From Fusobacteria bacterium ZRK30 (GTDB lineage Bacteria; Fusobacteriota; Fusobacteriia; Fusobacteriales; Fusobacteriaceae), in NCBI GenBank assembly GCA_024628785.1, contig CP102404.1, positions 310,001 through 374,000 on the forward strand: a DNA stretch of 64,000 nt. The letters run 5' to 3'. Numbering within the stretch: the first letter of the stretch is position 1; each line of letters opens with the position of its first letter. The position numbers and the translations under genes were made by a program. Of this stretch, positions 8,398 through 41,892 are shown piece after piece. The notes under the pieces were generated by a model, which was given only the letters and a program-made list of their open reading frames with translations, made no database searches and was not told the origin of the DNA.

Positions 8398-8532
8398 AAA
8401 AAAAGACCGTAGTCCACCCTCTACAAAAACTATGTGTGAAGAGTATAGACTTCTGCCTTTACTTTTCACCCATAGAGGTTAATTTTAGGTTAACCGTAGA
8501 GACACTAGACCATATTTCTAGCTTATATGAGT
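8398..8532 (-). promoter_or_regulatory. Guanine riboswitch of guaB
   Basis: The aptamer spans 8532-8468 on the minus strand. P1 is ACTCATA/TATGGGT, P2 is GCTAG/CTAGT with a purine-aptamer loop, J2/3 reads GTCTCTAC, P3 is GGTTAA/TTAACC, and J3/1 reads TCTATG. The cytosine in J3/1 is the position that pairs with guanine (a uracil there would mean adenine). An imperfect stem (AGTCTATACTCTTC with GTAGAGGGTGGACT) then ends in a run of T near 8400, giving a terminator-type expression platform. Ligand binding should repress guaB. Confidence 0.88.
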
Positions 8533-8559
8533 TATTGATTATTGTTATAAATTTCAATA

Positions 8560-14515: not shown

Positions 14516-14761
14516 ATGATGGAGAAAAATCTATTTTTAAAGATGAATATTCAAGACCTTTTTACAGAGTACCCCTTTGTTACTAAAATATTTGAAAAAT
14601 TCGGATTAAAGTGCAGCTCCTGCACATTTTCTAAAAATGTAAGTTTAGAAGATGCTCTTCAGAGTTCAGGGCTGTCTTCAAATGAAATTGTTGAGGAGAT
14701 AATAGAGCGTCTAGAGGGAGAAGGTAAAGATGAAGGGATATATACACGTATACACAGGTAA
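14516..14761 (+). CDS. DUF1858 redox-disulfide domain protein
   Basis: 81 residues. The protein shows the DUF1858 pattern (MNIQDLFTEYPFVTKIFEKFGLKCSSCTF, then SLEDALQ) with the CxxC pair at KCSSC. This family is associated with hybrid-cluster proteins and other redox enzymes, but its biochemical role is unclear. The start at 14516 is chosen for AGGAGG 9 nt upstream; an in-frame ATG at 14474 has no such site. Its 3' end overlaps the next gene by 32 bp in another frame. Confidence 0.75.
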   Translation: MMEKNLFLKMNIQDLFTEYPFVTKIFEKFGLKCSSCTFSKNVSLEDALQSSGLSSNEIVEEIIERLEGEGKDEGIYTRIHR

Positions 14762-15245
14762 CGGGAAGGGGAAAACTACAGCAGGTATGGGACTTATGAT
14801 AAGAGCTTTGGGGCATGGACTAAAAGTTTATATGGGGCAGTTTATGAAGGGGCAGAGATACGGTGAACTGAATACTCTGGAAAAATTAGGGATATCAATA
14901 GAAAGGTTTGGGACGGAAAACTGTATCATATCACCTGAACATGTGACAGATTTTGATCTGGCTAAAGCAAAGGAAGGGTATAAAAAAGTAGAGGAAGTTT
15001 TGCTAAGTAAAAAATATGATTTGGTTGTATTAGATGAAGTCTGTGTATCTACATATTTTAATTTGATAACTGTGGATGAGATCTTACATCTGATGAAGAT
15101 CAAGCCGGAGGAGACCGAATTGGTATTAACCGGGAGGTATGCTCCTAAGGAAGTTATAGAAGCGGCAGATCTGGTTACAGAGATGAAAGAGATCAAACAT
15201 TATTATAACTGCGGAGTTATGGCTAGAGACGGGATAGAAAGATAG
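14730..15245 (+). CDS. cobA: Cob(I)alamin adenosyltransferase, CobA/BtuR type
   Basis: 171 residues. The N-terminal P-loop GNGKGKTTAGMGLMIRALGHG is the CobA/CobO nucleotide site, followed by VYMGQFMKGQ and the Walker-B-like DLVVLDEVCVSTYF, and NCGVMARDGIER at the C-terminus. It transfers the adenosyl group of ATP to Co(I) corrinoid, making AdoCbl, the coenzyme needed by mutases such as the one at 35347-37098. The start is preceded by GGAGAAGG within the 3' end of the upstream gene, implying translational coupling. Confidence 0.88.
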   Translation: MKGYIHVYTGNGKGKTTAGMGLMIRALGHGLKVYMGQFMKGQRYGELNTLEKLGISIERFGTENCIISPEHVTDFDLAKAKEGYKKVEEVLLSKKYDLVVLDEVCVSTYFNLITVDEILHLMKIKPEETELVLTGRYAPKEVIEAADLVTEMKEIKHYYNCGVMARDGIER

Positions 15246-15316: not shown

Positions 15317-15340
15317 TCTTTAAAATTTATTATTAATATA

Positions 15341-15500
15341 ACTCATATAAATCGGAAATAGGGTCCGATGTATCTACGACTAACCTTAAATTAGTATCTA
15401 TGAGTGAATTCTAACCCAAAGTCTAAGCTCTAAAAGTATAGACTCCATTTGGATAGGTTCACTGTAGGTACAGAGAGCTTATTTATATGGAGTTTTTTTT
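15341..15500 (+). promoter_or_regulatory. Guanine riboswitch of guaA
   Basis: The aptamer at 15341-15405 has P1 ACTCATA/TATGAGT, P2 ATCGG/CCGAT, J2/3 GTATCTAC, P3 ACTAA/TTAGT, and J3/1 ATCTATG with the guanine-specific C. It is the same length (65 nt) as the guaB copy. The expression platform contains GTCTA/TAGAC, and ACTCCAT (near 15446) pairs with ATGGAGT before a run of eight T at 15493-15500. That gives a terminator directly ahead of the guaA ribosome-binding site. Confidence 0.9.
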
Positions 15501-17116: not shown

Positions 17117-17134
17117 AGTACTAAAAACGTACTA
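17117..17134. repeat. Left copy of the 18-bp subterminal repeat
   Basis: AGTACTAAAAACGTACTA, itself an inverted repeat AGTAC/GTACT, is identical to 39775-39792 at the other end of the island. It is a likely arm-type binding site for integrase or Xis. Confidence 0.7.
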
Positions 17135-17137
17135 TTT

Positions 17138-18226
17138 TTATTTTTCACTATTCTTTTCTATGGTATTTGTTATCAAATTTTGTAATTTATCAGCCACCTC
17201 ACCATGCTTATTCGGATAAAGGTGGGAATAGGTATTTAAGGTTGTTTCTATATTTTCATGTCCTAGCCTTTCAGAGATTAGTAATGGGGAAAATCCCATT
17301 TCAATCAATAAGGAAGCGTGGGAGTGTCTAAGATCATGAACTCTAATTTTTTTTAAATTAGCATTTTTAGTTCCACGTTTCATCTCATGATGAAGATAAT
17401 ATTTTGTCACTGGAAACAGTCTTTCATTAGATTGATAGTCATACAACTTAGAAATATATTCTTGAATGATATCACAGAGAAATTGAGGGATTGTAATAAT
17501 TCTCTTACTTTTAGGTGTTTTAGGTTGTAAAATCAAATCCTCCCCATCATGTCTTGCGTAATTTTTATTGATGGACATAGTTTTATTTTCAAAATCAAAG
17601 TCATCTTGAGTTAGGGCTAATAGTTCACCAGACCTTATCCCAGTCCAAAACAATATGTTGAAAATTGTTTTAGAAGCAGGCTTATTAGATATAACATTTA
17701 AAAATCTATTAAATTCTTCGGTAATCCAAAATGACATGGATTCAGCATTCTTCTTTCCCATACTACCACAAACACGTGCTGGATTAGAAGATAATTTATA
17801 ATATTTCATAGCAAAATTAAATATAGCCGAGAGCTGGTTATTAACTGTCTTTAAATATGTAGGACTGTATTTGTTTTCATGATTTATAAATTGATTTTGC
17901 CATACTCTAATAGTTGCAGATTCTATTTTATTGATTTGTAAATTCTCAAAATATGGGAGGACTTTGGTATTAATAACATATTCTTTGTTTGCATAAGTTG
18001 TTGGTTTCAGTCTTGACTTACAATCTTCCATATATAAACTTACAAGAGTTTTAAATGTCATCTCAGGGCTTGCCTGAGATCTCTCTAGGAATTCACGTTC
18101 AAATGTTTTGGCATCTCTTTGAGTTTTAAATCCTTCCTTTTTCTTCTTCTTCCTCTTTCCAGTCCAGTCACTATAATAAAATGATACATACCATGTTCCA
18201 CGATTTTTATTTTTATAAACTGCCAT
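17138..18226 (-). CDS. int: Tyrosine recombinase (integrase) of the island
   Basis: 362 residues. There is an N-terminal arm-binding segment (RGTWYVSFYYSDWTGKRKKKK), a SAM-like core-binding domain (FKTLVSLYMEDCKSRLKPTTY) and a catalytic domain. Arg is in WTGIRSGELLAL, Lys in QPKTPKSKRII, the HxxR box in RVHDLRHSHASLL, the second His in RLGHENIETTLNTY and the nucleophile Tyr in the same segment. All catalytic residues are present, so it is probably active. It is transcribed towards attL, the usual arrangement for site-specific integration modules. Confidence 0.95.
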   Translation of the reverse strand: MAVYKNKNRGTWYVSFYYSDWTGKRKKKKKEGFKTQRDAKTFEREFLERSQASPEMTFKTLVSLYMEDCKSRLKPTTYANKEYVINTKVLPYFENLQINKIESATIRVWQNQFINHENKYSPTYLKTVNNQLSAIFNFAMKYYKLSSNPARVCGSMGKKNAESMSFWITEEFNRFLNVISNKPASKTIFNILFWTGIRSGELLALTQDDFDFENKTMSINKNYARHDGEDLILQPKTPKSKRIITIPQFLCDIIQEYISKLYDYQSNERLFPVTKYYLHHEMKRGTKNANLKKIRVHDLRHSHASLLIEMGFSPLLISERLGHENIETTLNTYSHLYPNKHGEVADKLQNLITNTIEKNSEK

Positions 18227-32627: not shown

Positions 32628-32900
32628 ATGGCAAAATATGATAATGAATTTAAGAAGGAAATCGCTGAATTAGTTCATAACAAAATAAAAAGTAGATCAG
32701 AGATTAAACGCGAATATGGAATAGCTCCTAGCACTGTAGTTGGTTGGGAAAAACAATTCTTTGGAGAATTAAAAAAAAGAGATGATCTTTCACCTCAAGA
32801 ATTAGAAATAATAAAACTAAAAAAATTATTAAAAGAAAAAGAAGAGGAAAATGATATTTTAAAAAAGGCTACAGCCATATTCTCAAGGAACTTAAAGTAA
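32628..32900 (+). CDS. IS150-like transposase OrfA
   Basis: 90 residues. The N-terminal HTH (YDNEFKKEIAELVHNKIKSRSEIKREYGIAPSTVVGWEKQF) and C-terminal leucine-zipper-like helix (ELEIIKLKKLLKEKEEENDILKKA) are typical of IS3-family OrfA (HTH_Tnp_1). It is normally expressed alone as a regulator or, after frameshift, as part of OrfAB transposase. Confidence 0.88.
   Translation: MAKYDNEFKKEIAELVHNKIKSRSEIKREYGIAPSTVVGWEKQFFGELKKRDDLSPQELEIIKLKKLLKEKEEENDILKKATAIFSRNLK
32861..32867 (+). promoter_or_regulatory. Programmed -1 frameshift heptamer in the IS
   Basis: A AAA AAG is in register with the orfA frame (TTA AAA AAG). Slipping -1 joins orfA to orfB, continuing GYSHILKELKVKNKT. This is the canonical slippery site of IS3-family elements. 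Confidence 0.8.
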
Positions 32901-32971
32901 AGAATAAAACTATCTTTAAATTCATTAAAAATCACAGGAAAGCTCATAGTATAAAGCGGTTATGTGGTACT

Positions 32972-33799
32972 TTGGGGGTTTCTAAAAGTGGATTTTACAA
33001 GCAACTTCACCAGAAGGAGACTAAGACTTATAGAGATAAGTTAATGATCTTGGAATATATTAATAACATTAGAAAGAATAAGCATAAGAAAGCCTATGGG
33101 GCGCCTAGATTAAAAACTCAGTTACTGGATGAATACAAAATAAAAACAACAATTAAAAGAATTTCAAAGATAATGAGAGAATATGGCATAAAAGTTAATG
33201 GAATCAAAAAGTTTAAAGCTAGTTCAGCCTCTTCAAAACCACCGCAAAATATCAAAGAGAATTTACTAAAGCAAAATTTTAAAGCAGAAAGAAAAAATCA
33301 AATTTGGGTAACAGACATAACATATATTTGGACTAAAGATGGATGGCTATACTTAAGTAGTATCCTAGATTTGTGGAGCAAAAAAATAGTTCATTATGAG
33401 ATTAGGAATACAATGGATAAGAAACTTGTAATAGATACACTAGAAAAAGCGTACTTAAAAGAGCAGCCTGAGTTAGAAACAATAATTCATAGTGATCAAG
33501 GGTCACAATATACAAGTAATGATTATTGTAAGTTGATTGAACAGCTGAAAATGAAGCAGTCTATGAGTAGAAGAGGTAACTGTTATGATAATGCAGTTAT
33601 TGAGTAATTTCATGCGAGTATAAAAAAAGAAATGATCTATTTACAAGGTGTAATTAGTGCGAAAGAGATGAAATTAAGAGTTTTTGATTACATTGAAGGA
33701 TTTTATAATAGGGAAAGATTGCATAGTGCAAACGGGAATATGAGTCCCTTAAAATTTGAGGAAAAATACGAAGAAAAGTTGTCCACTATATTGACATAA
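32972..33799 (+). pseudogene. IS150-like transposase OrfB with a nonsense mutation
   Basis: The integrase core reads NQIWVTDITYIWTKDGWLYLSSILDLWSKKIVHY (first Asp), then IIHSDQGSQYTSNDY (second Asp) and SRRGNCYDNAVIE. There TAA (33605-33607) replaces the Ser codon that normally follows the catalytic Glu. The same frame continues FHASIKKEMIYL...RLHSANGNMSPL to TAA at 33797-33799. TCA to TAA is a single-base change, so the IS is recently inactivated unless the stop is suppressed. The frame is open upstream of 32972 to the frameshift site. Confidence 0.85.
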
Positions 33800-33954: not shown

Positions 33955-35340
33955 TTATAACTCTTTCAATTCTTTTTTCAAAATTCTTAGAGCAATATTG
34001 GGAGCCACTTCTCGAAGTAATCCCATAGAATAAAGAATATATTTTTTATCTAAATATAATTTAGAGGTCATAGGCAATAAAAAATTTTCTTCTTTTTTAC
34101 CACTTTTAAATACTGATGATAGTACTTTTTTGGGGTCTTTGTTGTGGATTATTGGACCGCCTGTGCCTATTATATTTTTTACAGTAGTAATATTTTTACC
34201 TACCTGTAATAATTTACAATTTGCTGAATGTACATGTTCAATACGTCCTGCATGTCTTCGTGTAGAAGACCTAGCAGCAATCTCGGCTAAAACCTCATCT
34301 AAATGCTTTTCATCTTCAGTATCGGGAATATATCCATTAACTACTACACGATGTTCAATGGAATCTTTTATCCATTCTACCTTTTTTCCACAAGTTTCTG
34401 ATAATTTTTCAATACCAACTTCATTAAGCATAAGCCCGGATGATTCCCGAACTCCTAAATCGCTTTCTACAGTACGTTTCGAATATGATTCTTTAGCTCC
34501 TGATAATCTGGCTCCTTTGTATGAAGTTTGTTCAGCGAATGAATGTACATCAGTAGTAGCTCCGCCTATATCAATTATCATCAGTTCACCAATTCCACTT
34601 TCACTTTCAGTTCCTTTTGTCAGTAATTCCCCGGCTGAAAGCACAGCTGATGGGGTAGGCATCAAGATATCATCTAATGTTTTTTTTACTTTATCTAATC
34701 CCTTCATATTAACTATTCTCTGAAGGAAAACTTCCCTGACTATATCCTCAGCCATTGCAGTATTTAATTGTCTAATATCTGGGATAAGATTATTTGCTAT
34801 AAAACATTCTTTTCTTCCTATTCGCATTAAACCTCTAACACTAGGAACGATTGCACTATTACCTGCATATATAATTGGGATTCTTAGATTACTTTCAGCC
34901 AAGATAGCTGCATTATGTAATACAATTGTTTCATTCCCATTTTCATATCCACCACAAAATAAAACAATTTCCACTTTTGCATCGACAAATTCTTGAACTT
35001 GTTCAGGTGTTATTTTTCCCGAAAGTGTGAACAAAATCTTTCCACCTGCTCCAAATGCTGTATTTCTTCCAGCTTTTATACTCAAGCTTTGGCTAAGACC
35101 TATTACTGCCATTCTTAATCCACCAGCTGCACTTGAAGAAGCTAATTTAATTGCTTTTTCAAATTTATCTTCTGATAGTACACTTTTTGCACTGTCTAAA
35201 CATTGTTGCAATCCAACTCTAGCATCTGTTTTTACTGTTGAAGCAAAACAGTTAGTATGAAGAATCTTCTCTTCTTTTAATGAAACAACGACAACTTTTG
35301 TATGGGTACTCCCAAAATCTAATAAAATAGCATTATCCAT
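33955..35340 (-). CDS. MutL/GlmL-type accessory ATPase of the B12 mutase
   Basis: 461 residues of the ASKHA fold. Phosphate-1 is LLDFGSTHTKVVVV; the later nucleotide motif is MIIDIGGATTDVHS; adenosine-type motif IGTGGPIIHNKDP. This is the GlmL/MutL family encoded beside AdoCbl carbon-skeleton mutases such as glutamate mutase, where it is thought to protect or reactivate the corrinoid site. It lies 6 bp after the mutase gene on the same strand. A MutL implies the partner is a mutase, which supports the neighbour's assignment. The name here does not refer to the mismatch-repair MutL. Confidence 0.88.
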   Translation of the reverse strand: MDNAILLDFGSTHTKVVVVSLKEEKILHTNCFASTVKTDARVGLQQCLDSAKSVLSEDKFEKAIKLASSSAAGGLRMAVIGLSQSLSIKAGRNTAFGAGGKILFTLSGKITPEQVQEFVDAKVEIVLFCGGYENGNETIVLHNAAILAESNLRIPIIYAGNSAIVPSVRGLMRIGRKECFIANNLIPDIRQLNTAMAEDIVREVFLQRIVNMKGLDKVKKTLDDILMPTPSAVLSAGELLTKGTESESGIGELMIIDIGGATTDVHSFAEQTSYKGARLSGAKESYSKRTVESDLGVRESSGLMLNEVGIEKLSETCGKKVEWIKDSIEHRVVVNGYIPDTEDEKHLDEVLAEIAARSSTRRHAGRIEHVHSANCKLLQVGKNITTVKNIIGTGGPIIHNKDPKKVLSSVFKSGKKEENFLLPMTSKLYLDKKYILYSMGLLREVAPNIALRILKKELKEL

Positions 35341-35346
35341 AACACT

Positions 35347-37098
35347 CTACCCTACTACACTGTAAATTTTTTCTACAATATCTATTGTAAGATCCATGTT
35401 GTTATCACAATTTACTCCTAAATCCTTAACTTGAACTGTTACATCTTCTGCAAGACTTCCACCATCTAAATTTTCATTGAGTAATCCACCCATAACGAGC
35501 TGCACATCTAAACCAGCTTTTTTAATTTTTTCAACAACTTCTTTTGAATAAGTAAGAGCAATACCATTATAAGTACTGATAATTATCACCTTAGCTTCAG
35601 TCTCAAGAACTGTTTCAATCAGTTCATCTGGAGTAACATAAGTACCTAGGTCAAATACTGTTGCACCTGCCTTAGCAACTATTGTTTTTACTATTTCTTT
35701 ACCATAATCGTGAATATCAGTTGTCCCAACGATTACTTTTTTCCCCTCCAAACGTTTTTTTAAATTTCCAATTCTATCTAGAGCAATCGACTTTTTATCC
35801 ATTAAAATTTTAGTCATATCTGTAGGTCTCACTGGGATTCTCTCTCTCAATCCATCTTTTTCTCTAGTTCCAACACCAAAATTATCCTCTAATTGTTTAG
35901 GTCCAATAGCTTTAAGTGCTGCCATCATTTGACCAGGATGCTTTATATCTACACCTAAATTTTCTAAACCATCCATCATTCTTTCAAAGAATAAACTTCC
36001 TGCAGCTATATAAACATCAGTTTCAGCTTCAACTTTTTCCCAGTTGATATATGGCTCCATAAATTTAGATTTTTCAATCATCATATCTATACAAAGGTGA
36101 CCATCGACAATTTCTTGAGCAGTTGGTACACGGATAGCTTCTGTTACTGGAACTGAAGCTACTGAATGACCTGTAGGACAGTGACGTTGAAATATTGCAT
36201 CTGCTAATGAAAATGATGACAAAGCTCCAAAATTACGTTCAATATCCAAACCATAATCAACTGTATTACCAAAAATCATAGTACCAGGAGTTTTATATTT
36301 ATTTAATCTATCCATGGTATTGTGCATAATAATTCTTCCCATTGGGTCACTAAATAAGTTACCATAAGCATGAGATAACCTAGCTCCTAAAAGTTCTTCA
36401 ACGATATATCTCTCCATCATTGCCCAACCTGTTATACTCACTAAATCTGTAAATTGATTACCAAAACCATCATCAATATTTGAATGAACAACAGTACCTT
36501 CATATTTTCCCATCAGATAGAATGCTTTCATTGAATTCCAAGTACGATCATACTCTAAATCAACTCCTGGATATTCATAAGTAAAGTAATGAGATACATT
36601 ACCTATGGAAGTAGCTCCAGCCTTAAGAGCATAAACTGTATTTTCCCAAGCATTTGGGCAACCAATCATATGATCGGATAAGTGGGGTTGAACAGGCACT
36701 ACTTGTCCTAATGCAGCCCATTCTTCTGGTGTCTCCAAACAAAGCCCAGTACCTTTTGGAAGTTTATGTCTATACTCTTTAGGAACACCCATTACCCAAT
36801 CACATATAAATCCAAAACGTGTAATATGACTTCCACGTTTTTTTAACTCATTATATATAAATTCAATGTTTTTTGCTGTTTCGTCCCAACTATTCCAACC
36901 AACATGAGAATGTTTAGTTAATTCTCCATTTTTCATGCACTTTAATTTGTATTCATTCTCAGATTTCACACCATATTCTTTAAAAAATAAAGTTTCTCCA
37001 ATTTTGATATCTTTGGCAGCAGCATCAACTTCACGACGCATTGTATCCATATCAGGTAAATCTTTCCATTCAAATCTCTTATCAAATTTAATATTCAT
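35347..37098 (-). CDS. Single-chain AdoCbl-dependent mutase, substrate unknown
   Basis: 583 residues. Residues about 1-440 look like a TIM barrel (YTFEYP-type and HVGWNSWDETAKN segments, HPGQMMAALKAIGP). The C-terminal 125 residues are a B12-binding domain with the base-off/His-on signature D461-x-H463-x-x-G466 (TDIHDYGK), STYNG in place of the SxL segment, and VMGG. Glutamate mutase splits these domains into two subunits; a fused order with MutL recalls 2-methyleneglutarate mutase, but the barrel does not match any mutase I can name. It lies in an island with a dedicated permease and regulator, suggesting a catabolic mutase for an imported acid or amino acid. Good AGGAG start. Confidence 0.75.
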   Translation of the reverse strand: MNIKFDKRFEWKDLPDMDTMRREVDAAAKDIKIGETLFFKEYGVKSENEYKLKCMKNGELTKHSHVGWNSWDETAKNIEFIYNELKKRGSHITRFGFICDWVMGVPKEYRHKLPKGTGLCLETPEEWAALGQVVPVQPHLSDHMIGCPNAWENTVYALKAGATSIGNVSHYFTYEYPGVDLEYDRTWNSMKAFYLMGKYEGTVVHSNIDDGFGNQFTDLVSITGWAMMERYIVEELLGARLSHAYGNLFSDPMGRIIMHNTMDRLNKYKTPGTMIFGNTVDYGLDIERNFGALSSFSLADAIFQRHCPTGHSVASVPVTEAIRVPTAQEIVDGHLCIDMMIEKSKFMEPYINWEKVEAETDVYIAAGSLFFERMMDGLENLGVDIKHPGQMMAALKAIGPKQLEDNFGVGTREKDGLRERIPVRPTDMTKILMDKKSIALDRIGNLKKRLEGKKVIVGTTDIHDYGKEIVKTIVAKAGATVFDLGTYVTPDELIETVLETEAKVIIISTYNGIALTYSKEVVEKIKKAGLDVQLVMGGLLNENLDGGSLAEDVTVQVKDLGVNCDNNMDLTIDIVEKIYSVVG

Positions 37099-38210
37099 TA
37101 TGCTACCTCCGATTTTATATTTCCACTCATACGTATTCTTATGTTTTTAACAATGATGAAACCTAATAAAACAATACCTGCGTAACCATTAACTACATAT
37201 ACAAAGTTTAGTAATTTATTAAATGGTACTTTTAAGGCAATTAAATAACCTATTGGCGCTAAAGTAAGTGTTAATATATAAAACGCTTTTGATTTTTCTT
37301 TTGCAAAACGAGATGTAGCTGTCCATAGTAATGGAACTGATGTCGTATAGATTGCAAGAAATACAACGATTGCAAATATAGGAGCAAATATTGGCATCAA
37401 TTTATTTACTAATACTAAGTTTGGTATTTGTGCACTTTTTACTAATTCAACATTGGCGGTTAAAGCAAATCCACTTACTATAATTGCTAATGTATTAAAA
37501 ATTGCTGCTGCTATAACTGCTATGGTAACTTCTTTACGTTTATTCTCAGATCCTATTTTTGCCATAAAACCACCAAACCAAAGCATACAGAAACCTGCAT
37601 ATGAACCTCCGGCTAATAACCAATGAGAAGATGCCTGCATTACTTTAACTTCACCTGAGTTAATCTTCTGAACTGCTACGGGTATATTTCCACCATCGTT
37701 AATTAATGCGTAAATACCTACAACTGTGCAAATTATAACGATTAAAGGACCTATTTTTCCGATAATGTTAACAAGTGAATTTAATCCCATAGTTACTGTT
37801 GTTGCTGCTAAAACTGTAATAATAAATCCTCCAATATATGTTGGAACGCCATACTGTTGCTGTAATGTTGCAGCTCCTCCACCAATCATAACTATAAATG
37901 ACATATAGCAAAATCCGACAGAGAACACATCATAAGCAGTCCCCACAACATTTCCACAGAAATATCTATAAACATCTGCACCTTTATCAAACTTTCCAAT
38001 ATTCCCTGCCCTAGCATACGCATAATTAGAATAGCCAAAGATAATTAAGAAAACTAAACCTACCAGTAAACCTTGATATCCATAAGAAGTAATAAATTGA
38101 ACTACCTCTTGCCCAGTAGAGTAACCCGAGCCTATTGAAAATGCCAATATTGCTCCTACCAATGTAAAAATTGTGCCATAATTTAACTTGCTTCCGTCGT
38201 TGTTGACCAC
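37098..38210 (-). CDS. YkvI-type membrane transporter
   Basis: 370 residues, about 10-11 TM segments. It opens YGTIFTLVGAILAFSIGSGYSTGQEVVQFI; the helix-1 break GSGYSTGQE is typical of YkvI/LeuT-like amino-acid transporters. Later segments include LAGGSYAGFCMLWFGGF and VNGYAGIVLLGFIIVKNI. Its stop overlaps the mutase start (1 bp), so transporter, mutase and MutL form one transcript. The likely job is uptake of the mutase substrate or export of its product (inference). Confidence 0.75.
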   Translation of the reverse strand: MVNNDGSKLNYGTIFTLVGAILAFSIGSGYSTGQEVVQFITSYGYQGLLVGLVFLIIFGYSNYAYARAGNIGKFDKGADVYRYFCGNVVGTAYDVFSVGFCYMSFIVMIGGGAATLQQQYGVPTYIGGFIITVLAATTVTMGLNSLVNIIGKIGPLIVIICTVVGIYALINDGGNIPVAVQKINSGEVKVMQASSHWLLAGGSYAGFCMLWFGGFMAKIGSENKRKEVTIAVIAAAIFNTLAIIVSGFALTANVELVKSAQIPNLVLVNKLMPIFAPIFAIVVFLAIYTTSVPLLWTATSRFAKEKSKAFYILTLTLAPIGYLIALKVPFNKLLNFVYVVNGYAGIVLLGFIIVKNIRIRMSGNIKSEVA

Positions 38211-38671: not shown

Positions 38672-39235
38672 ATGTTTTCAATTGGAACTAGAATTAAATA
38701 TTATAGAAAGAAAAAAACTTTAACTTTACAAAAATTATCGCAAAGAACATCATTATCTATTGCATATTTAAGTAATATAGAACGAGAAGTGACTAGTCCT
38801 ACATTACAAAATATTCAAATTATTTGTCAAGCTATGGCTATTAATGCAGTGGATTTAATAAATGAAAGTATTTCTTTTAAACCTGTAATTAAAAAAGCTG
38901 AAAGAGAATCGGTTTATAGCAAAGATTATGGAATAAATTATGAATATTGGACAGATAGTAATCAAAGATTAGTTGGGAAAGTACAAACATTAACAAATGA
39001 TGCAAAAGGTACTAAAAACTGGGGTCATGACACTGACGAAATTGGAATAGTTATAAAAGGAACGTTAAAAATAGAAATTTATGGTTCCACTTTTATTCTT
39101 GAAGAAGGAGATTCTATATATGTAAAAGCATTTTCAGAGCATTTTATAACAAAAATCTCTGAAAGCGATTGTGTAAGTTATTGGGCTGCTATGAACACTC
39201 TTAAAAGTATTGATAGTTGTAATAATATATTGTAA
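38672..39235 (+). CDS. XRE-cupin transcriptional regulator
   Basis: 187 residues. The N-terminal HTH_3 is IGTRIKYYRKKKTLTLQKLSQRTSLSIAYLSNIEREVTSP. The C-terminal cupin (DEIGIVIKGTLKIEIYGSTFILEEGDSIYVKAFSEHFI) probably binds the inducer. This family usually represses adjacent small-molecule operons. It is divergent from the permease-mutase-MutL operon, so it is the likely sensor of that pathway. Confidence 0.85.
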   Translation: MFSIGTRIKYYRKKKTLTLQKLSQRTSLSIAYLSNIEREVTSPTLQNIQIICQAMAINAVDLINESISFKPVIKKAERESVYSKDYGINYEYWTDSNQRLVGKVQTLTNDAKGTKNWGHDTDEIGIVIKGTLKIEIYGSTFILEEGDSIYVKAFSEHFITKISESDCVSYWAAMNTLKSIDSCNNIL

Positions 39236-39774: not shown

Positions 39775-39792
39775 AGTACTAAAAACGTACTA
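39775..39792. repeat. Right copy of the 18-bp subterminal repeat
   Basis: AGTACTAAAAACGTACTA, identical to 17117-17134, in direct orientation. It lies 102 bp inside the right repeat; the left copy lies 60 bp inside the left one. Confidence 0.7.
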
Positions 39793-40444: not shown

Positions 40445-41539
40445 CTATCTAGGAATAAAATTGATGTGTGGGTTATCTGCCTCTATCTTAACTATTACCG
40501 TACGGTACTCTGAACTCTCTGTGATAGGATTGCTACGCATACAGACATGAAAAAATTTATTAAGTTTGGAGAACACTTTTTCGAATCCTGCAATTGTATC
40601 TATTTGGTTATTAGAAAGATCGAGATTCTGTAGATTATCAGGGAACTTCACATCCTCCAAGGTCGTTATCTGGTTGCTGAGGAGATCGAGATTCTGTAGA
40701 TTATTAGGGAACTTTACCCCCTCTAAGCTCGTTATTTTATTGCTAAGAAGGTCAAGAGTTTGCAGGCTATTGGGAAACTTTACTACCTTTAGGTTTGTTA
40801 TATTGTTGCTAAAAAGATGGAGAGTTGTCAAGCTATCGGGGAACTTTATCCCTTCGAGATTCGTTATCTTGTTGTTATTAAGACCAAGAACTGTCAGGTT
40901 ATCAAGATTGGTAAAGTCTAGACCCTCCAAACTAGCTATCTGGTTACTAAAAAGATGGAGAGTTGTCAGGCTATGGGGGAACTTCATCCCCTCGAGACTA
41001 GCTATCTTGTTGTTATTAAGACCAAGAACTGTCAGGTTATCAAGACCGGTAAAGTCTAGACCCTCCAAGCTAGCTATCTGATTGTGCTTGAGATTAAGTT
41101 CTATTAGACCACCGGGGAACTTTACCCCCTCGAGACTAGCTATCTTGTTATTATTAAGATCAAGGGTTGTCAGGCTATCAGGAAACTTTACACCTTTCAG
41201 GTTCGCGATCTTGTTGTGATTGAGATTAAGTTCTGTTAGGCTGCCAGGGAACTTCACCCCTTCCATATTTACTATCTTATTTTGACTAAGATTAAGTTCT
41301 TTCAGATTTACGAGATGATCTATCCACTTCAGTTCTATAATTCCTTTATTTATTGCAGTCAACTTTGTTATCAGCATCAGTTCATGTGTGAACAAGTTAT
41401 AAGGGTTGGATGAGAGAGTGATTCCTTTCTCAGCTGCTGCTAACTTCAATGCCTCCCAGATTAAATCTCTAAGGGTTTCGTTATCTATCATTACGGCCGT
41501 CCACTTAATTTCTACTACTTTTGATATTGGTAAAATCAT
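40445..41539 (-). CDS. Leucine-rich-repeat protein
   Basis: 364 residues. After a 70-residue helical cap (LIWEALKLAAAEKGITLS) there are about 12 LRRs of 21-23 residues with the internalin-like consensus LTxLxLxxNxIxxLEGVKFPxS, then a C-terminal cap (FHVCMRSNPI). There is no signal peptide or membrane anchor, so it is probably cytoplasmic and protein-binding. The start at 41539 follows GAGGAGGG; an earlier in-frame start (41566) precedes that site. Repeats are duplicated at DNA level with a period of about 138 bp (two LRRs), most clearly between 40810 and 41090. Confidence 0.85.
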   Translation of the reverse strand: MILPISKVVEIKWTAVMIDNETLRDLIWEALKLAAAEKGITLSSNPYNLFTHELMLITKLTAINKGIIELKWIDHLVNLKELNLSQNKIVNMEGVKFPGSLTELNLNHNKIANLKGVKFPDSLTTLDLNNNKIASLEGVKFPGGLIELNLKHNQIASLEGLDFTGLDNLTVLGLNNNKIASLEGMKFPHSLTTLHLFSNQIASLEGLDFTNLDNLTVLGLNNNKITNLEGIKFPDSLTTLHLFSNNITNLKVVKFPNSLQTLDLLSNKITSLEGVKFPNNLQNLDLLSNQITTLEDVKFPDNLQNLDLSNNQIDTIAGFEKVFSKLNKFFHVCMRSNPITESSEYRTVIVKIEADNPHINFIPR

Positions 41540-41892
41540 TTTTATCCCTCCTCTTGATACCACCAATTATGCACTAAATATTTATTCTTATAATATACAA
41601 TTACTTTTTTTTATTCCTCTTCTGGAGTTACTAAATTGTTCATAAAAAATATTATTGCTTATCGTAACAGGCTATAATTACTTAGGTAAACACATGGTTC
41701 TGATGCAACTATTATGGAGAATCTAAAATTTATTTAATGTTTTTTTCCTGTCATACACAGAGAATCGCTACTTTAGGAATAAATTTTTAGTTGTTCAAGA
41801 AATTATTTAGAATTTCTAGTAAAAAGAAGTAAATGAAATGTTTTATTTATCTAATTCACTGTCTATCTGATCATTAGAGGTTAGTAACTACC
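41540..41892. other. Gene-free stretch between the LRR gene and nadK
   Basis: 353 bp, AT-rich, with no frame or RNA signature I can support. Its end carries the second copy of the 29-bp repeat (41855-41883), abutting the nadK stop codon. Confidence 0.5.
41855..41883. repeat. 29-bp repeat flanking the LRR gene (copy 2)
   Basis: TTCACTGTCTATCT then GATCATTAGAGGTTA, in direct orientation relative to 40317-40345. Confidence 0.5.

Follow-up and report, generated by a model that had tools for sequence, protein, structure and literature searches.

We analysed a 64,000-nucleotide stretch of contig CP102404.1 from Fusobacteria bacterium ZRK30 (hereafter the window), in which three consecutive genes encode a permease, a B12-binding protein and a MutL-type chaperone. 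The features considered here are as follows.

14730..15245, plus strand: BtuR/CobO corrinoid adenosyltransferase (PF02572, 213 bits), outside the island
17117..17134, plus strand: left 18-bp direct repeat AGTACTAAAAACGTACTA, att-like, perfect repeat
17138..18226, minus strand: tyrosine integrase of the island (PF00589, PF14659, PF14657)
33955..35340, minus strand: MutL (GlmL-family reactivase/chaperone) of a dedicated clade (PF13941, TIGR01319, tree)
35347..37098, minus strand: putative single-chain AdoCbl-type mutase, 583 aa, with a predicted GlmE-like barrel (about residues 1-440) and a C-terminal B12 domain (about residues 450-583)
37098..38210, minus strand: YkvI-type permease, 370 aa, GTG start, with homologues beside sarcosine reductase genes
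38672..39235, plus strand: divergent XRE-cupin gene, probable local regulator (HTH_3 and Cupin_2, Pfam)
39775..39792, plus strand: right 18-bp direct repeat, att-like, a perfect copy of the left one

The three genes are transcribed from the minus strand in the order permease, mutase, MutL. The permease and mutase genes share 1 nt in a TAATG overlap, 6 nt separate the mutase gene from the start of the downstream MutL gene, and GGAGG-type ribosome sites precede both the permease and the mutase genes. The initial annotation had described a 583-residue protein that overlaps or abuts these two partners and ends in a B12 domain with D461-x-H463-x-x-G466; the arrangement is as described, and the motif is exact. 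The permease matches no Pfam or NCBIfam model. Comparison with G044, a genome of another genus that carries the same genes, gave dN 0.042 and dS 0.92 for the mutase and dN 0.075 and dS 0.77 for MutL, and these low dN values relative to dS indicate that both genes are maintained under purifying selection. The corrinoid adenosyltransferase gene that the annotation had recognised at 14730-15245 is confirmed by its Pfam match, and it is a possible source of the coenzyme.

The XRE-cupin regulator had been counted as completing the set, a view that the homologous loci do not bear out. Its position is taken by a GntR-FCD gene in Lutispora and by an S24/CI-type repressor in a Desulfovibrio MAG, no regulator adjoins the mutase trio in G044, and the XRE-cupin gene is absent from the homologous loci.

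The module occupies the right end of an island of about 22.7 kb between the 18-bp repeats, with the integrase beside the left copy. Only these two copies of the repeat occur in the window (chance expectation 0.00). The island also contains a resolvase, an IS110-type transposase, an ArdC-like gene, a Rad52-like gene and a split IS3 element, and its G+C is lower across most of the left part. No empty island site was found in relatives, which match guaA and diverge about where guaA ends. The proposal that the module is cargo of a mobile element holds for the window, where the integrase and the repeat speak for it, but not as a property of the module, which in G044 lies in the chromosome with no integrase nearby.

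Beside the MutL gene, the IS3-family element (window 32628-33607) consists of two ORFs, the second of which stops early relative to the family model. A leucine-rich-repeat gene just outside the right repeat (window 40445-41566) contains tandem units of 66 and 138 nt, with similar DNA in relatives' genomes. Two purine riboswitches (window 8453-8550 and 15323-15420) lie upstream of IMP dehydrogenase-like and GMP synthase-like genes.

Domain analysis of the mutase, with Pfam matches considered at E up to 1, revealed only the B12-binding domain PF02310 (47.7 bits against a cut-off of 32.1, residues 459-539), and NCBIfam likewise recognised nothing else. PDB sequence searches, with the single sequence and with a nine-member profile, gave significant matches to B12 domains only. 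The AdoCbl mutase test pattern DxHxxG-x41-SxL-x26-28-GG is present with Tyr replacing Leu; D461, H463, G466, S508 and GG537-538 thus follow the spacing DxHxxG-x41-S-x-[LY]-x26-GG, and DxHxxG-S-GG spacing is common to AdoCbl mutases and corrinoid methyltransferases. The C-terminal B12 domain is fused in all nine family members. In carrying a barrel ahead of a C-terminal B12 domain within one chain, the protein resembles the methylmalonyl-CoA mutase family; it differs from that family in having no PF01642 match and no CoA genes beside the module. The chaperone of methylmalonyl-CoA mutases is MeaB, not MutL.

Residues 1-440 have no sequence match in Pfam, NCBIfam or the PDB, and at E up to 1 the mutase matches none of PF06368 (glutamate mutase E), PF09043 (lysine 5,6-aminomutase alpha) and PF01642 (MM-CoA mutase). 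An AlphaFold model built from the single sequence reached a pLDDT of 35, and one built with three family members (59-64% identical) showed a beta-alpha succession at mean pLDDT 52.8 and pTM 0.47, with much of residues 238-445 below pLDDT 50. Foldseek with the mutase model returned B12 enzymes as top matches. Using VIA-align, this low-confidence model matched glutamate mutase E first (Z 20.7, rmsd 4.4, 344 residues aligned), with a second glutamate mutase E match at Z 20.3 over 326 residues. The next barrel was lysine 5,6-aminomutase alpha (Z 17.1), the remaining high rows were mostly B12 domains, and MetH folate barrels fitted more poorly than GlmE, at rmsd 10-20.

Profile comparison also pointed to GlmE. 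Aligned by hhalign with a diverse set of 12 GlmE sequences, the barrel family scored 35.3 (E 0.0015), colinear across the whole barrel. Column shuffles averaged about 17 and peaked at 29.5, so that none of the 250 equalled the real alignment, and a reversed control gave 19.0. Thin alignments of GlmE (Fusobacteriia only) and of MCM gave no signal, and a thin LAM alpha alignment scored 18.4 against 16.3 for shuffles; with profiles this thin, the low MCM and LAM scores do not speak against either family, and sequence comparison does not single out GlmE over them. Together, fold and diverse-profile comparison support a predicted relationship between the mutase barrel and glutamate mutase E. The barrel had initially been said to fit no nameable mutase, and comparison of residues 1-440 with profiles and structures had been suggested. 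That statement stands for the family models, none of which matched, but not for fold and profile, with the GlmE fold ranked first and the hhalign score above all shuffles.

The rank of LAM alpha as second-best barrel bears on another reading, in which the protein would be of the lysine 5,6-/ornithine 4,5-aminomutase type and use AdoCbl together with PLP to shift an amino group. These enzymes are likewise TIM-barrel B12 radical mutases, and an aminomutase locus with a MutL is present in the same genome. However, their arrangement differs from that of the window mutase, in which no PLP site was identified, the thin LAM alpha alignment gave no profile signal, and PF09043 does not match; we regard an aminomutase as improbable.

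The residues of the arginine claw with which glutamate mutase binds glutamate are named in PMC9545868. In the profile alignment, which is good to a few residues, GlmE R66, R100 and R149 fall on mutase H65, F97 (or D100) and H139; a nearby invariant arginine, R94, could be a shifted R100. GlmE E330 and the IPT motif fall on the invariant E320 and P325. Because the claw positions are taken by His, Phe and His, glutamate is an unlikely substrate. This weighs against a divergent glutamate mutase that converts glutamate to 3-methylaspartate, a reading that would account for GlmE as the nearest barrel fold and for a GlmL-family partner. The window mutase does resemble the GlmES/GlmL system of the methylaspartate pathway in its predicted barrel fold, its DxHxxG B12 domain, its MutL partner and the aligned E330/IPT region. 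Unlike GlmES, however, it is one chain rather than two, no methylaspartase adjoins the module, no citramalate genes lie nearby, and the genome already has GlmS, GlmL and GlmE together, so that a glutamate mutase at this locus appears most improbable. We file the protein outside glutamate mutase because the defining features tested (a PF06368 match, the claw and a separate GlmS) were not found.

Two further GlmE homologues are unusual in their own right. On Fusobacterium vincentii pSB055A, a GlmE homologue adjoining a MutL gene (L085:301-1728) has Y, K, D and H in place of R66, R149, E171 and Y177, four residues kept in 11 of the 11 other GlmE sequences fetched; judged by its sequence, it is possibly a second non-glutamate mutase. 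A Roseibium GlmE (L084) is longer than usual at about 665 aa, and an amino acid racemase gene adjoins it.

The window MutL matched PF13941 with 439.8 bits (cut-off 27) and TIGR01319 with 350 bits (cut-off 204); against the GlmL equivalog NF040745 it scored 453.8 bits, just under the cut-off of 475. Phylogenetic analysis with GlmL and other MutL proteins revealed that the MutL proteins of four modules, from hosts in three phyla, form one clade with support of 100/100. Ranked by sequence divergence, the MutL proteins of these hosts fall in the same sequence as their mutases. The genome encodes two more MutL proteins: the gene for the first accompanies GlmS and GlmE, and that for the second adjoins an aminomutase. 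A separate, fully supported clade alongside two other MutL genes in the genome thus suggests that the mutase module brings its own dedicated reactivase. The B12-enzyme partners of MutL that we saw were glutamate mutase and the aminomutase locus of this genome.

To chart the distribution of the family, we surveyed 98 genomes of the class, in which, besides the window, a full-length homologue occurs in G044 only (92% identical, same three genes). A close-relative pattern scan of 84,980 species genomes added Lutispora saccharofermentans (65%), in which mutase, MutL and YkvI genes are consecutive, and the Desulfovibrio MAG (59%), in which mutase and MutL are followed by the contig end. The neighbourhood survey proposed at the outset therefore shows a recurring association, mutase-MutL-YkvI in G044 and Lutispora and mutase-MutL in Desulfovibrio. 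Three scans of viral contigs turned up no relatives, and phage records yielded a single weak match to part of the protein (residues 393-538), for the most part its B12 domain.

Plasmid records, in turn, revealed full-length relatives (33-36%) with an intact B12 motif in Shinella, Sinorhizobium, Neorhizobium and Phyllobacterium. These rhizobial mutases adjoin a P5CR-like reductase, GntR regulators and branched-chain or polar amino-acid ABC transporters, and the Shinella, Sinorhizobium and Neorhizobium clusters also encode a KstD-like flavoprotein and a conserved 285-aa protein. No MutL was found near the rhizobial mutases or elsewhere on the plasmids searched; a rhizobial chromosome may carry one. 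The 285-aa protein (L037:20150-21007, L040:15773-16627) has no NCBIfam model, and its Neorhizobium copy has no Pfam model either. In Rhizobium lentis, a gene annotated DUF1349 (L082:7833-8798) is 38% identical to the C-terminal part of the mutase family and adjoins an IS66 element; it is probably a truncated copy of a mutase-family gene.

Hints about the substrate come from the permease and from the rhizobial clusters. YkvI permeases 40-47% identical to that of the window adjoin sarcosine reductase genes in five Fusobacteriia genomes (ZRK30 included) and in Peptoclostridium, which suggests that these homologues import sarcosine or glycine-like compounds. Among the sarcosine reductase neighbours, grdG exceeds the curated cut-off in one, and grdF is interrupted at a UGA that is presumably read through as in a selenoprotein; genes for component B of sarcosine reductase adjoin YkvI-type permeases at L122, L123, L124, L125, L126 and L079. 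Among more distant YkvI permeases, one neighbours a serine ammonia-lyase gene and another a 3-hydroxy-D-aspartate aldolase-like gene. The permease-based hint is weak, since the module permeases form a poorly supported clade (65/48). The gene content of the rhizobial clusters, meanwhile, suggests breakdown of amino or imino acids. Permease context, the non-arginine claw and these clusters, none of them conclusive, point towards a small amino or imino acid as substrate.

The link between the permease family and sarcosine could also fit a corrinoid methyltransferase in which a TIM barrel and a corrinoid domain share one chain and the methyl group comes from an N-methyl amino acid, for example sarcosine. 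The resemblance of the B12 domain to methyltransferase corrinoid proteins and the rhizobial members without a neighbouring MutL agree with this reading, which we nevertheless judge very unlikely: the module has a dedicated MutL, a protein that we encountered alongside mutases, neither a methyltransferase acceptor nor a RamA-type activator is encoded nearby, and the MetH folate barrel is a poorer match to the barrel than GlmE.

The known mutase that has a barrel followed by a B12 domain in a single chain is 2-methyleneglutarate mutase (Mgm) of Eubacterium barkeri. On the strength of this shared domain order, the window mutase might belong to the Mgm family and act on 2-methyleneglutarate or a close analogue. 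However, the four loci compared (the window, G044, Lutispora and the Desulfovibrio contig) have no other nicotinate-pathway genes around the module, as the initial annotation had already observed for the window, and the permease family is tied to small amino acids. In gene context, the window mutase differs from Mgm in being paired with MutL and YkvI rather than placed in a nicotinate-fermentation cluster. As of 2009, Mgm had been reported from E. barkeri only (PMC2667541), and a rare family would fit that record. Taken together, we consider membership of the Mgm family rather unlikely. A 'novel B12-dependent family' described in the same paper (PMC2667541) is a different protein: its B12 domain is N-terminal, and it lies beside opine dehydrogenases.

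Collectively, the fold and profile comparisons, the B12 motif and the gene context make it probable that the protein is an AdoCbl-dependent radical mutase belonging to the structural class of glutamate mutase, its barrel and B12 domain joined in a single polypeptide, and that it is accompanied by a MutL reactivase and an importer. Gene order, the B12 motif, the dedicated MutL clade and purifying selection are read directly from the sequences, and the GlmE-like barrel with non-arginine residues at the aligned claw positions is supported by model and profile. We infer AdoCbl rather than methylcobalamin as the cofactor, as well as the mutase chemistry, the kind of substrate (a small amino acid) and what MutL and the permease do here. 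In the proposed mechanism, the YkvI permease would import the substrate, more probably a small amino or imino acid than a dicarboxylate like glutamate. The mutase would hold AdoCbl base-off/His-on through His463, and Co-C homolysis would yield a 5'-deoxyadenosyl radical that abstracts a substrate hydrogen and allows a group to migrate. The rearranged product would then pass into ordinary metabolism, while MutL would swap out inactivated cofactor. Of the import-rearrange-sense module first envisaged, the conserved mutase, MutL and permease sustain the first two functions, but the XRE-cupin sensor is not conserved.

The family is an uncharacterised one and not glutamate mutase proper; its separation from Mgm is tentative. 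In open-licence papers we found neither the mutase family nor the function of YkvI described. It is possible, though less likely than not, that the family constitutes a new AdoCbl mutase class, with a non-dicarboxylate amino-acid substrate, a His/Asp-lined barrel mouth replacing the arginine claw and an undescribed rearrangement, spread as a permease-mutase-reactivase module and with an aerobic rhizobial branch. This novelty would diminish if the family proved close to 2-methyleneglutarate mutase.

To our knowledge, few kinds of B12 radical rearrangement exist, each of which opened a new metabolic branch, and new substrate types are seldom found. The compact importer-mutase-reactivase set, whose enzyme would by itself make up nearly all of the pathway, narrows the candidate substrates to compounds imported by one permease and one rearrangement away from common metabolism. 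The compact module and the larger amino-acid catabolic clusters of aerobic rhizobia offer two independent contexts for the substrate search. Furthermore, the replaced claw residues would provide a natural test of how specificity is set in the glutamate-mutase barrel.
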